Positions 883 through 62,078 of a DNA stretch of 64,000 nt are shown piece after piece. Source of the stretch: Maridesulfovibrio hydrothermalis AM13 = DSM 14728 (GTDB taxonomy: Bacteria > Desulfobacterota > Desulfovibrionia > Desulfovibrionales > Desulfovibrionaceae); the NCBI RefSeq assembly GCF_000331025.1, contig NC_020055.1, positions 62,001 through 126,000 on the forward strand, in the 5' to 3' direction. The position numbers and the translations under genes were made by a program. Position 1 is the first letter of the stretch, and each line of letters begins with the position of its first letter. Below the pieces are notes generated by a model that had not been told where the DNA came from, did no database searches, and saw only the letters and a list, made by a program, of their open reading frames with translations.

Positions 883-2481
883 TCAGATATTAGACCAGCA
901 TAATTTCAGATGTTCTCTTGCCATTTTCGGGGTGACCATAGCAACACCGATCGCAAGTGCAAGGGATACTGGAAGCGCAATTACGTTGGGGTCAACCCAT
1001 TGCAGCAGCCAGACCCATGAACCTTTGGCTGCACCTGATACCAGTGTATCCTGTCCGGTGAGCATTTTACACAGCCCGATTACTTTTGCTTCTTTCGCGT
1101 GTACGAAAAGCAGCCAGAACATGGACGCGCTGAATCCGCCGACAAGGGATACTTTTGCGGCTTTTTTGGTCATTCCTTTCCAGTACAGACCGAGCAGGTA
1201 GATAGGCAGAAAGGATGCCGCGCACAGACCGAAGAAGAATGCGGTGGCTCTGGCAATAATGGACGGGGGCAGAATCCATGCCCATGCGATTGCGGCGAGC
1301 AGGGTGATGGAAACACCGATCTTGGTAATCTTAACAGATTTTTCGCTGGATACTTTAACAAACCTTTCGAAGAAATCCCGTCCAAGTGCCGTTCCACCCA
1401 CGTGGTACTGGGAGGACAGGGTGGACATACCGGCTGCAAGCATTGCCAGCAGGAAAAGTGATGAAAACCATGACGGCATCATCTGTTCAATATACATGGG
1501 GATGATTTTATCCATGTTGCCGCCAGCCACTGCGATGGAAATCTTACCGGCTTCCTTGAAGAATACTGCGTTGGAGAGTGCGCCCACAGTGAAGGCTACT
1601 CCGGTCATGAGCGGAATGAAAAGTCCACCGTAAAGAACTGCGCGGTTTAGCTCGCGGTCAGAAGGAACGGTCATAAAACGAACAGCAAGCTGGGGCTGTG
1701 CCAGAACACCTATACCTACGCCGTAGACGATGGTGGTATAGATTACCAGCCATAGAGGTGTGCCGAATCTGGCTCCCTGTGTCCAGCCGATCATACCTCC
1801 TTTTTGCAGCTTGGCAGGCATGAGGTTGACCATATCGGTCAGGGCCTGATGAGCTTCGGTTACTCCGCCGAGCATAATATACGTTGAAACTATAAGGATA
1901 AGCATCATCACCGCCATGATCAATCCTTGAAAAGCGTCAGTGTACATTACAGCTTTCATTCCGCCTGAAACAACGTAAACAGCCAGAATCACGCTGATGA
2001 CAATAAGAGCTGCGCCATAAGGAATACCAAAGGAAATTTCCATCATGCGAGAAATACCGATCAGTACTGCCGCCGCATAAACAGGGATGAAAAGAAATAT
2101 GATGCCACCGGAAAAGCCTTGAATGAAGCGTGAATCATAACGCCTTCCCAACAGTTCCGGAAAGGTGTGACTGCCAAGTGCCAGCCCCATGCGTCTGGTG
2201 CGTTTGCCGAAAAAAACCATCGCAATAAATACACCGACCACAATTGTGGCAAGGGTGAGCCAGAGCAGCGGAAAACCAAAAAGTCCCGCTGCGCCGCCGA
2301 AGCCGATGATGGCAGAAGTTGAGACAAAAGTTGCACCGTAAGACATTGCCATGACGAATGGATTCATCTGGCGTCCGGCAAGCATGTAGTCAGTAGATTG
2401 TTTGCTGGATTTCCAGCCCTTGAAGCCGAGAAAAAGAATTACAGCAAGATAAATAGAGGTGATAGCAATTTTCGTAATCAT
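883..2481 (-). CDS. Sodium:solute symporter (SSS family), possibly an aromatic amino acid transporter
   Basis: A 532-residue polytopic protein of the SSS/PutP/PanF superfamily with about 13 predicted helices. It has the N-terminal stretch with DYMLAGRQMNPFVMAMSYGA and the ATFVSTSAIIGFGG sodium-site region, and the family hallmark GGMKAVMYTDAFQG near residue 175. The start overlaps the stop of the preceding small gene (TAATG), with AGGAAG as ribosome-binding site, so the two are translationally coupled. Sequence alone does not give the substrate. The upstream leader peptide with six consecutive Phe codons suggests control by charged tRNA-Phe and hence aromatic amino acid (or its 2-oxoacid) transport; this is inference. 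Pantothenate, proline or a monocarboxylate remain alternatives. Confidence 0.9.
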   Translation of the reverse strand: MITKIAITSIYLAVILFLGFKGWKSSKQSTDYMLAGRQMNPFVMAMSYGATFVSTSAIIGFGGAAGLFGFPLLWLTLATIVVGVFIAMVFFGKRTRRMGLALGSHTFPELLGRRYDSRFIQGFSGGIIFLFIPVYAAAVLIGISRMMEISFGIPYGAALIVISVILAVYVVSGGMKAVMYTDAFQGLIMAVMMLILIVSTYIMLGGVTEAHQALTDMVNLMPAKLQKGGMIGWTQGARFGTPLWLVIYTTIVYGVGIGVLAQPQLAVRFMTVPSDRELNRAVLYGGLFIPLMTGVAFTVGALSNAVFFKEAGKISIAVAGGNMDKIIPMYIEQMMPSWFSSLFLLAMLAAGMSTLSSQYHVGGTALGRDFFERFVKVSSEKSVKITKIGVSITLLAAIAWAWILPPSIIARATAFFFGLCAASFLPIYLLGLYWKGMTKKAAKVSLVGGFSASMFWLLFVHAKEAKVIGLCKMLTGQDTLVSGAAKGSWVWLLQWVDPNVIALPVSLALAIGVAMVTPKMAREHLKLCWSNI

Positions 2482-2645
2482 TACTTCCTGCCTTTGTCTT
2501 TGCCTACTTCGAGATTTAAAGCAGTAGCATCAGGTTTGCCTTTAGTGTTCCAGTTCAAAAGTCCATAAGCGACGCAACCGAGTGAAGCGAGCAGGCACAG
2601 CCAGAATACTGCCGCGATTTCCACACTTCCTAGTCCTAACATCAT
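2481..2645 (-). CDS. Small single-span partner protein of the symporter (54 aa)
   Basis: A 54-residue protein beginning MMLGLGSVEIAAVFWLC, with one hydrophobic helix (about residues 8-30) and a Lys/Gly-rich tail. It has a good ribosome-binding site (GGAGG, 6-7 nt upstream of tandem ATGs at 2645/2642), and its stop overlaps the symporter start by one base. Very small membrane proteins directly upstream of SSS symporters are common (YjcH with ActP, YhdT with PanF), and they are annotated elsewhere as symporter small accessory proteins. I infer that it stabilises or assists the symporter. No catalytic motif is present. Confidence 0.75.
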   Translation of the reverse strand: MMLGLGSVEIAAVFWLCLLASLGCVAYGLLNWNTKGKPDATALNLEVGKDKGRK

Positions 2646-2742: not shown

Positions 2743-2776
2743 AAAAAAAAGGCCGCGGGCTTAGTGCCTGCGGCCT
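2743..2776 (-). terminator. Intrinsic terminator (attenuator) in the symporter leader
   Basis: On the minus strand AGGCCGCAGGC (2776-2766), loop ACTAA, GCCCGCGGCCT (2760-2750), one G-U pair, followed directly by seven more T. It sits about 100 nt before the small symporter partner gene and 24 nt after the stop of a short Phe-rich reading frame, the expected position of an attenuator rather than an end-of-gene terminator. Confidence 0.85.
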
Positions 2777-2799
2777 GTGGAAATTCTTTCAACTTTCGC

Positions 2800-2880
2800 T
2801 TACGCGAGTGAACACCACCAGACCACAGGGCTGGTAAAGTTAAAAAAGAAAAAGAAAAAATAAGTTTTTCTGGTGTTCAT
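2800..2880 (-). CDS. Phe-rich leader peptide (26 aa) controlling the symporter operon
   Basis: Minus-strand frame starting at ATG 2880-2878 and ending at TAA 2802-2800. It begins MNTRKTY, has six consecutive Phe codons (2859-2842, mixed TTT and TTC), then Asn-Phe, and later two adjacent Trp codons. Seven of 26 codons are Phe. Composition and position in front of a terminator match amino-acid leader peptides such as E. coli PheL and the pheST leader. The segment CCTGTGG (2829-2823) inside it is complementary to CCACAGG (2780-2774), which overlaps the terminator's 5' arm, giving an antiterminator. There is no clear Shine-Dalgarno; the predicted transcript start is only about 2 nt upstream of the ATG. 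Confidence 0.7.
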   Translation of the reverse strand: MNTRKTYFFFFFFNFTSPVVWWCSLA

Positions 2881-2888
2881 GAAGATAT

Positions 2889-2917
2889 TATCTATAGGAG
2901 TATTTACTCACTGTCAA
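2889..2917 (-). promoter_or_regulatory. Sigma-70 type promoter of the Phe leader / symporter operon
   Basis: Minus-strand TTGACA (2917-2912), 17-bp spacer, TAGATA (2894-2889). The predicted start near 2882-2883 would place the leader ATG (2880) almost at the mRNA 5' end. Confidence 0.65.
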
Positions 2918-4610
<1,693 letters not shown>

Positions 4611-61526: not shown

Positions 61527-62078
61527 ATGGAGGAAAAAAGAACATCGAAGCAATGTGGAGGAGTTCTTCCTTTCTTCATCGGTGTCCTTGCGAGCCTGAT
61601 CATCGGTTGGTGGGTTTTCCCGCAGGTTATTTATAGCCAGAAAACTCAGCCTATCGATTTCAGTCACAAGGTTCACGTTGAAGGTGAAGGTATGGACTGT
61701 GAGTCATGTCACATGTTTTTGGAAGATGGTTCCTTTGCAGGTCTTCCTTCCAATGAGCAGTGTGCTGATTGTCATGAAGATATTCTCGGCGATTCCAAAG
61801 CTGAAGAAATCTACGTGACCGAGTATCTGCAGAAGGGTGTAGAGGTTCCTTGGCTGGTCTACCAGTATCAGCCGGACAATGTATACTTTTCGCACATGGC
61901 GCACCAAGGCTTCGAGTGTACTAGTTGCCATCCCGACGTAGGCAACAGCGATACGCTGCCGACGTATTACGAAAACAGAATAAGCGGTTACAGCAAGCAG
62001 ACCATGAAGATGTGGCAGTGTGAACGCTGTCATGCGGAAGTTGGTACCAGCAACGCATGTTACGTCTGCCATAAGTAA
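61527..62078 (+). CDS. qrcA: Menaquinone reductase multiheme cytochrome c subunit QrcA
   Basis: 183 residues. An uncleaved N-terminal helix (about 13-32) anchors it, with the rest periplasmic. Five canonical CxxCH heme sites: residues 58-62, 79-83, 131-135, 165-169 and 178-182, plus additional His ligands (FSHKVH, FSHMAH). QrcA is described as carrying six hemes; I see only five complete motifs. It accepts electrons from periplasmic cytochrome c3 and passes them into the Qrc complex. A TTGACA lies at 61437-61442 but without a good -10. qrcB follows 13 nt later. Confidence 0.92.
   Translation: MEEKRTSKQCGGVLPFFIGVLASLIIGWWVFPQVIYSQKTQPIDFSHKVHVEGEGMDCESCHMFLEDGSFAGLPSNEQCADCHEDILGDSKAEEIYVTEYLQKGVEVPWLVYQYQPDNVYFSHMAHQGFECTSCHPDVGNSDTLPTYYENRISGYSKQTMKMWQCERCHAEVGTSNACYVCHK

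Follow-up and report, generated by a model that had tools for sequence, protein, structure and literature searches.

A 64,000-nt stretch of the Maridesulfovibrio hydrothermalis AM13 = DSM 14728 genome (GCF_000331025.1, NC_020055.1, forward-strand positions 62,001–126,000; hereafter the window) carries on its minus strand the genes for a sodium:solute symporter and a small accessory protein, preceded by a promoter, a short Phe-rich open reading frame (ORF) and a terminator (Table 1). The initial annotation had taken this arrangement for a phenylalanine leader-peptide attenuator, and its description of the frame proved exact: the encoded peptide holds seven Phe, six of them consecutive, one Tyr and a Trp-Trp pair. 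The GC-rich terminator it reported is also in place, with a stem (GGCCGCAGGC/GCCCGCGGCC, 2775–2751) interrupted by a single A-C mismatch and followed by eight T, while the promoter it called good has a perfect −35 box and a weak −10 box. By eye, we found no Shine-Dalgarno sequence upstream of the leader ATG. The leader RNA folds at −47.8 kcal/mol versus −28.5 kcal/mol for shuffled sequences (z −5.65). None of 4227 Rfam families, amino-acid leaders included, matched at gathering score anywhere in the 64-kb window, and a consensus scan of the window reported neither the leader promoter nor the leader terminator. Adjoining the leader, a divergent gene (3264–4610, plus strand) encodes an NADP-type glutamate dehydrogenase; at locus L100 a 448-codon ORF occupies the corresponding position.

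Table 1. Features of the leader and the downstream genes, with positions numbered within the window.
Feature	Position	Strand	Details
−35 box, TTGACA	2912..2917	−	Perfect; leader ATG 37 nt downstream
Operator-like palindrome, GAGTAAATACTC	2898..2909	−	Between −35 and −10 boxes; shuffle test
−10 box, TAGATA	2889..2894	−	Weak; 17-nt spacing from −35; predicted position
Leader peptide ORF	2880-2800	−	26 codons, MNTRKTYFFFFFFNFTSPVVWWCSLA
Segment 1, GAACACC	2872..2878	−	Partner GGTGTTC, 2816-2810; RNA folding/pairing
Control codons, Phe x6	2842..2859	−	Codons 8-13; ORF translation
Seventh Phe codon	2838-2836	−	Codon 15; ORF translation
Segment 2, CCTGTGGTCTGGTGGTGTTC	2810..2829	−	Within ORF; antiterminator strand and segment 1 partner
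Segment 3, CCACAGGCCGCAGGC	2766..2780	−	Terminator 5' arm (2775-2766) and five preceding nt
Segment 4, GCCCGCGGCC and U tract	2743..2760	−	Terminator 3' half; 2760-2751, U tract 2750-2743
Symporter small accessory protein	2481..2645	−	54 aa; own GGAGG; NF045580, 44.7 bits (cut-off 35)
Sodium:solute symporter	883..2481	−	532 aa; PF00474; TIGR00813, 188.8 bits (cut-off 184)

The symporter is present in 13 of the 17 genomes of the genus and in 71 of the 348 genomes of the order (E ≤ 1e-150). At 89 distinct symporter sites, drawn from all the loci retrieved, we scored as a leader any ORF with at least four Phe or Tyr whose ATG lies 33–40 nt after a −35 motif. Leaders stand at 65 of these sites, 58 of Phe type (mean 7.7 Phe) and seven of Tyr type, and a Phe-rich leader occupies the same place in all 13 symporter-holding genomes of the genus, the window's own included. 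An intrinsic terminator between the leader ORF and the regulated gene was detected automatically for 62 of the 65. Twelve leaders of the genus have 27 codons; among these, Phe is invariable at codons 8, 10, 14 and 16, codons 11 and 13 are Phe or Tyr, and codons 12 and 15 vary freely; the C-terminal half, FTSPV.W.CSLA, is strongly conserved within the genus. The surroundings are rewritten in other genera (e.g. NRFGFFFFFGFRFFRSACGLGVCE), with the Phe run kept and the RNA motif CCTGYGG largely kept. Phe codons are moreover concentrated in the ORF frame, where they make up 444 of 691 codons in the 58 Phe-type leaders versus 182 and 184 in the other frames. The comparison of orthologous upstream regions that the initial annotation had proposed came out in favour of its attenuator: Phe codons persist while neighbouring codons drift, the terminator is conserved, and we found no refutation.

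We placed the symporters in a tree of 87 rows, leaving out L008 and L089, which have no readable start. All 65 leader-bearing symporters fall into one group of 69 (support 94); the 24 sites without any leader divide into 18 outside this group, four inside it and two absent from the tree. Of the four inside, one follows another symporter gene as the second of a tandem (L098), one has its upstream DNA cut by a contig end (L084), and two, L064 and L071, belong to other families and are not separated by the tree from the leader-bearing rows. A strict clade of leader-bearing symporters was dropped on account of L064 and L071.

Promoter spacing sets the symporter leaders apart from ordinary genes. 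TTGAC lies 35–38 nt upstream of the ATG in 64 of 65 symporter leaders, counted by a script that took only ATGs 33–40 nt after the −35 motif, versus 9 of 490 control ORFs (at least 120 codons, from loci numbered 63 or higher minus two E. coli loci, the loci partly overlapping). An unrestricted search gave the same 35–38 nt in 52 of 59 symporter leaders; of the remaining seven, six are Tyr leaders for which an internal ATG had been taken as the start, at 57, 58 or 28 nt, and one, L079, lacks TTGAC. Shine-Dalgarno-like motifs precede 9 of the 65 leaders versus 204 of the 490 control ORFs, and the leader −10 boxes are weak, with TA at the first two positions in 34 of 65. With the usual promoter geometry, the first transcribed base would fall at or within a few nucleotides of the A of the leader AUG, and the spacing suggests that the symporter leader is probably leaderless.

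The leader RNA contains segments that can pair in alternative ways. We examined these in the 62 leaders whose terminator was detected automatically, a set from which L098, L058 and one L063 copy are absent. Segment 1, formed by the first codons, is able to pair with the last part of the ORF, as is segment 2, within the ORF, with the 5' arm of the terminator. Swapping partners among the 60 distinct leaders weakened both interactions, from a mean of −19.6 to −16.0 kcal/mol for 1:2 and from −24.6 to −22.9 kcal/mol for 2:3, with 0 of 5000 permutations as good in either case; this test takes no account of relatedness among the leaders, and for 1:2 only 10 of 60 leaders bind their own partner best of all. 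An alignment of 28 of the 62 leaders has 93.2% of terminator cells paired, with double changes at 6 of 11 pairs, and 97.2% of the cells of the nine-pair antiterminator paired, with a double change at one pair; covariation in 2:3 is by itself modest, 22 of 500 shuffles reaching its score. The leaders show the mutually exclusive 1:2, 2:3 and 3:4 pairings by which trp/phe-type attenuators are recognised.

The initial annotation had paired CCTGTGG, inside the frame, with CCACAGG at the base of the terminator. Both motifs are present and complementary in the window, and CCTGTGG occurs in all 13 genus genomes, but CCACAGG occurs in just one of them, that of the window, and we rejected this pair as the antiterminator. 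The predicted conserved antiterminator is instead CCTGTGG paired with the terminator 5' arm (CCGCAGG).

We next consider which ribosome positions permit this pairing. Masking a ribosome on the control codons leaves segment 2 largely free, and 2:3 forms as long as segment 4 is not yet made (mean probability 0.92 over stalls); in the window leader the probability is 1.00 with the ribosome on codons 8–13 and 0.50 on codon 15, and 2:3 is blocked only with the ribosome on about codons 16–24. The same protocol returned the textbook result for E. coli pheL and trpL, with 2:3 at 0.8–1.0 on the control codons and 0.03 at the stop codon, where the window leader reaches 1.00. Across the leaders, 2:3 averages 0.88 with the ribosome at the stop and falls below 0.5 in only 6 of 62, close to the mean of 0.87 with the ribosome absent. 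Contrary to the initial annotation, translation to the stop would not cover CCTGTGG: because the stop codon lies beyond segment 2, a ribosome there leaves segment 2 uncovered. The window leader would work like the pheL type without sharing the pheL/trpL geometry, in that a ribosome at the stop codon does not block 2:3, and we do not class it as a pheL-type member. Equilibrium folding of the whole attenuator under ribosome masks gave no discrimination, the full terminator winning in nearly every state, and does not explain termination in the fed state; folding at intermediate length and refolding barriers gave partial information. We infer that this termination is a matter of timing, with the ribosome still on segment 2, or 1:2 already closed, when segment 3 emerges. 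This is the weakest part of the model; of the 62 leaders, 27 have refolding barriers that favour it by at least 2 kcal and 9 have barriers that go against it, the others being neutral.

These observations suggest a model in which the RNA would begin at or next to the leader AUG and a ribosome would load despite the missing Shine-Dalgarno sequence. Under Phe shortage, this ribosome would stall in the Phe run and make either segment 1, at the 5' end, or the first part of the internal hairpin unavailable, and segment 2 would stay unpaired and capture the emerging segment 3, the 5' arm of the terminator. Antitermination would then let RNA polymerase continue through the genes for the accessory protein and the symporter. 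With ample Phe, the ribosome would cross segment 2 and depart, 1:2 would form early, and the 3:4 terminator would follow and end transcription.

Duplicated symporters supply a natural test of the control codons. In six of the ten symporter-holding genomes of another genus, the symporter is present as two adjacent paralogues, both preceded by an attenuator of their own (L093, L085, L094, L087, L088 and L086); the remaining four genomes have Phe leaders only. At L093, one copy carries the Phe leader MNKLNTNFFFAFFGFRGIQACGSVECVRA and the other the Tyr leader MNTINHHMNSYFYAYYGYRVIKTCGSVECV, so that FFFAFFGFR on one reads YFYAYYGYR on the other, with Tyr at five of the six Phe positions and a single Phe left in the Tyr leader. 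At the other five loci, the start of this motif varies in the Phe copies (e.g. FLFAFFGFR and IFYAFFDFR). An attenuator that keeps its RNA architecture while swapping its codons would be hard to explain unless the codons were the sensor. A seventh Tyr-rich leader, L083 (five Tyr, four Phe), belongs to another family, which implies that the change towards Tyr would have occurred at least twice on the tree. Tandem copies are also found at L063 (G278), where each has a Phe leader with no codon change, and at L098 (G021), where no leader was found on the second copy; these two tandems are possible intermediates towards a Phe/Tyr pair.

To survey the wider family of leaders we used a covariance model built from 28 symporter leaders. 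Its matches at E ≤ 0.01 fall in as many as 259 of the 288 family genomes, one to six in each, and among these genomes are the four of the genus that lack the symporter; across the phylum, 28 of 247 genomes matched at E ≤ 1e-4, eight of them in the family. These E-values are rough, and because the model contains the terminator some weak matches may be bare terminators, as is L138, one of the four matches in the window's genome. Two further matches in that genome are strong. One is the leader MQTFNTLGASLSYFYYFYFWCTHACGRVEVCSL, with four Phe, four Tyr and one Trp, which precedes a run of 12 ORFs that starts with an ADH synthase; the eight further ORFs checked in this run have DHQ synthase II, PheA, AroA, TyrA, TrpE, TrpD, TrpF and TrpA domains. 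The other is MLNHDFFTFFRFFFFWTIN, which precedes a PaaK-like ligase (630.5 bits, slightly below the cut-off of 646.3) and a protein with a pair of ACT domains. The initial annotation had seen the attenuation logic of biosynthetic genes applied to an uptake gene; the device does precede a symporter, but it is not isolated, since the same genome has it before the aro-trp operon and the PaaK-like gene.

At 20 further loci, model matches picked before their leaders were read, the control codons agree with the downstream aro genes throughout. All ten loci with ADH synthase, DHQ synthase II and PheA have leaders that hold Phe, Tyr and Trp codons, and all ten with ADH synthase and, over the stretch examined, neither DHQ synthase II nor PheA have Phe-rich leaders with no Trp and at most one Tyr. 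Outside these 20, L174 and L176–L179 combine DHQ synthase II with leaders containing Phe, Tyr and Trp, as expected, and L175, which lies outside the family, is a partial exception: it has ADH synthase and no DHQ synthase II in the stretch examined, and its leader has three Tyr and no Trp. By eye, three loci in other families of the phylum (L181, L182 and L184) have aromatic-rich leaders and terminators before genes for an aminotransferase, a DAHP synthase and a shikimate kinase, and attenuators of this sort may accordingly be widespread in the phylum.

An ATG lies 35–38 nt after TTGAC in 19 of the 20 sampled loci; L150, L161 and L164 each have a second ATG in the same frame. The exception, L166 (57 nt), resembles the aro leaders of one large genus (L177–L179) and L181, in all of which TTGAC stands 57–58 nt before the ATG, a distance that would accommodate a short 5' UTR. 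On account of these loci we rejected a leaderless start common to all leaders of the family. Leaderless spacing is a lineage trait, with leaderless and ordinary forms of one device apparently coexisting in the phylum.

Taking the aro, PaaK and symporter units together, we lean, with some reserve, towards a re-codable attenuator regulon, leaderless in most lineages read, that would govern aromatic amino-acid supply in the Desulfovibrionaceae. It would be retuned by rewriting codons in place: to Phe, Tyr and Trp for the common operon; to Phe for the private ADH synthase, the PaaK-like ligase and the symporter; and to Tyr for the duplicated symporter with its changed substrate. The start codon would then be both the 5' end of the RNA and part of the stem to be opened.

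A second layer of control, perhaps by a repressor, may act at the promoter. Palindromes occupy the place of the window's operator-like sequence in 12 congeners and are longer in several (e.g. CAGTAAGTAAACACTTACTG in L033 and AGTAATTGCTCAATTACT in L035); at most 11 of 200 shuffles match them in 10 of the 12, compared with 43 of 200 in the window. By eye, the promoter of the PaaK leader (L136 1456–1500; G000:C2, just before 2736991) has GTGAGTGTCTACTTA where the symporter promoter has GTGAGTAAATACTCC, and the two Phe-led units may on this basis share a regulator. A TetR-like ORF, recognised by eye at L071 (5268–5903; another family of the order) directly 5' of a symporter without a leader, is a candidate regulator for the palindrome operator.

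The named models nearest to the symporter are PutP (proline; 188 bits) and PanF (161 bits), both below their own cut-offs and nearer than ActP/MctC, the acetate and monocarboxylate models scoring 57–68 bits. The PutP-like score favours an amino acid, and the Phe-to-Tyr leader swap strengthens the case for Phe (or a precursor) as the substrate of the window symporter. Its most probable cargo is the amino acid that the control codons encode, Phe here and Tyr for the Tyr-led copies. A search of PDB sequences with the symporter returned only distant sodium symporters, and none of 20 proteins encoded by neighbouring genes at seven loci (L093, L099, L095, L101, L079, L065 and L063) had an above-cut-off match to aromatic amino-acid families. 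The six Tyr-led copies are set apart from the Phe-led symporters by four positions (190 A to V, 293 T to I, 297 F to Y and 420 C to S); all 58 Phe-led symporters have Phe at position 297 and all six Tyr-led copies have Tyr there, and the L083 symporter has the Phe-type residue at all four. Positions 293 and 297 are one helix turn apart, and the predicted structure has a mean pLDDT of 80.1. We regard the four positions as a lead towards specificity residues.

The alternative that deserves most attention leaves the attenuator as it is and changes the cargo: the symporter would import an aryl-acid precursor, phenylacetate or, in the case of the Tyr-led copies, 4-hydroxyphenylacetate, which carboxylation would turn back into the amino acid. 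The Phe leader before the PaaK-like phenylacetate-CoA ligase and the ACT protein in the same genome leaves room for such a precursor and would fit a response to Phe shortage if PaaK feeds Phe synthesis; because a Phe-starvation switch would turn the PaaK-like gene on, it suggests that the enzyme serves Phe synthesis. PaaL, a known phenylacetate permease, is a member of the symporter's superfamily, which also counts for aryl-acid import. Against it stands the ranking of model scores given above, with PutP and PanF ahead of the acetate and monocarboxylate models, and we judge aryl-acid import unlikely, though well worth keeping in view beside import of the amino acid itself.

Other explanations concern the leader rather than the cargo. 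TTT accounts for 322 of the 455 Phe codons, as it might if the Phe-rich ORF were a by-product of U-rich RNA before a merely constitutive terminator, but this idea is hardly credible in the face of the frame bias of the Phe codons, the fit of the stems to their own partners and the match of leader codons to downstream genes in all 20 sampled loci; Tyr codons at Phe positions in the duplicated copies already largely refute it. It is also very improbable that the nascent peptide, through FTSPV.W.CSLA, arrests the ribosome on binding free Phe, as the TnaC nascent peptide does with Trp, with the codons not sensing tRNA charging at all. Strong conservation of the C-terminal half within the genus would fit such an arrest, but other genera read RSACGLGVC or ACGSVEC there while CCTGYGG is largely kept, so that RNA pairing explains the conservation. 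A function of the short hydrophobic peptide as a small membrane protein or in trans would be compatible with attenuation in addition and finds a precedent in peTrpL of S. meliloti, another leaderless leader peptide, for which PMC7298713 describes trans roles; we give it very little credence, given that the sequence outside the control codons tracks base pairing and otherwise drifts. We consider it highly likely, judging from the conserved sequence features, that the window device is a ribosome-mediated transcription attenuator sensing charged tRNA-Phe and that the symporter likely imports the amino acid of the control codons.

Leader-peptide attenuation is a classical mechanism, of which pheST is another Phe example. 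The window leader shares with E. coli pheL-pheA a leader peptide with Phe codons and a choice between terminator and antiterminator before the regulated gene. Unlike pheL, it has no Shine-Dalgarno sequence, its spacing is leaderless, its target is a symporter and it has no Rfam match; segment 2, its antiterminator strand, is situated within the reading frame, before the stop codon, and its folding with a ribosome at the stop differs. In Gram-positive bacteria, Tyr- and Phe-specific T-boxes control genes, transporters among them, in response to tRNA charging, and one codon can change their specificity. T-boxes differ in binding the tRNA directly, with no leader peptide.

Precedents for single traits are found in other bacteria. 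The attenuator RNA of the S. meliloti leaderless trpL (rnTrpL/peTrpL) starts with the ATG of the leader peptide, according to PMC7298713; it differs from the window leader in its Trp codons, its biosynthetic gene and its bacterial class. C. glutamicum has an ilvB leader without a ribosome-binding site (known here from a reference title in PMC4046766) and an aroF leader with Phe-Tyr-Phe before an aromatic gene (PMC4046766), which resemble the present family in lacking a ribosome-binding site and in mixing Phe and Tyr residues before an aromatic gene, respectively. They differ in belonging to an actinobacterium and in preceding biosynthetic genes, and the section of PMC4046766 consulted describes no Tyr-dominated leader. 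A 2005 paper (PMC1262725) lists Phe among attenuator-controlled pathways and Tyr among T-boxes. In the portion of the open-licence literature covered, no description of leader-peptide attenuation in this group of sulfate reducers was found, and no open-licence paper on leader-peptide attenuation with tyrosine codons; both are weak evidence of absence. As far as that literature shows, the Tyr leaders with five Tyr and one Phe would be the first Tyr leader-peptide attenuators. New features of the family appear to be the leaderless spacing, the antiterminator within the ORF, the uptake gene as target and the Tyr version obtained by codon replacement after duplication.

The attenuator extends leader-peptide attenuation to a group of sulfate reducers and provides a concrete substrate prediction, Phe, or Tyr for the swapped paralogues, for uncharacterised sodium symporters with a small accessory protein. 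Within the family, leaderless and ordinary leaders of one kind offer a natural comparison, and the paralogue pairs would amount to an experiment of nature, in which a codon swap that followed duplication bears on attenuator specificity.
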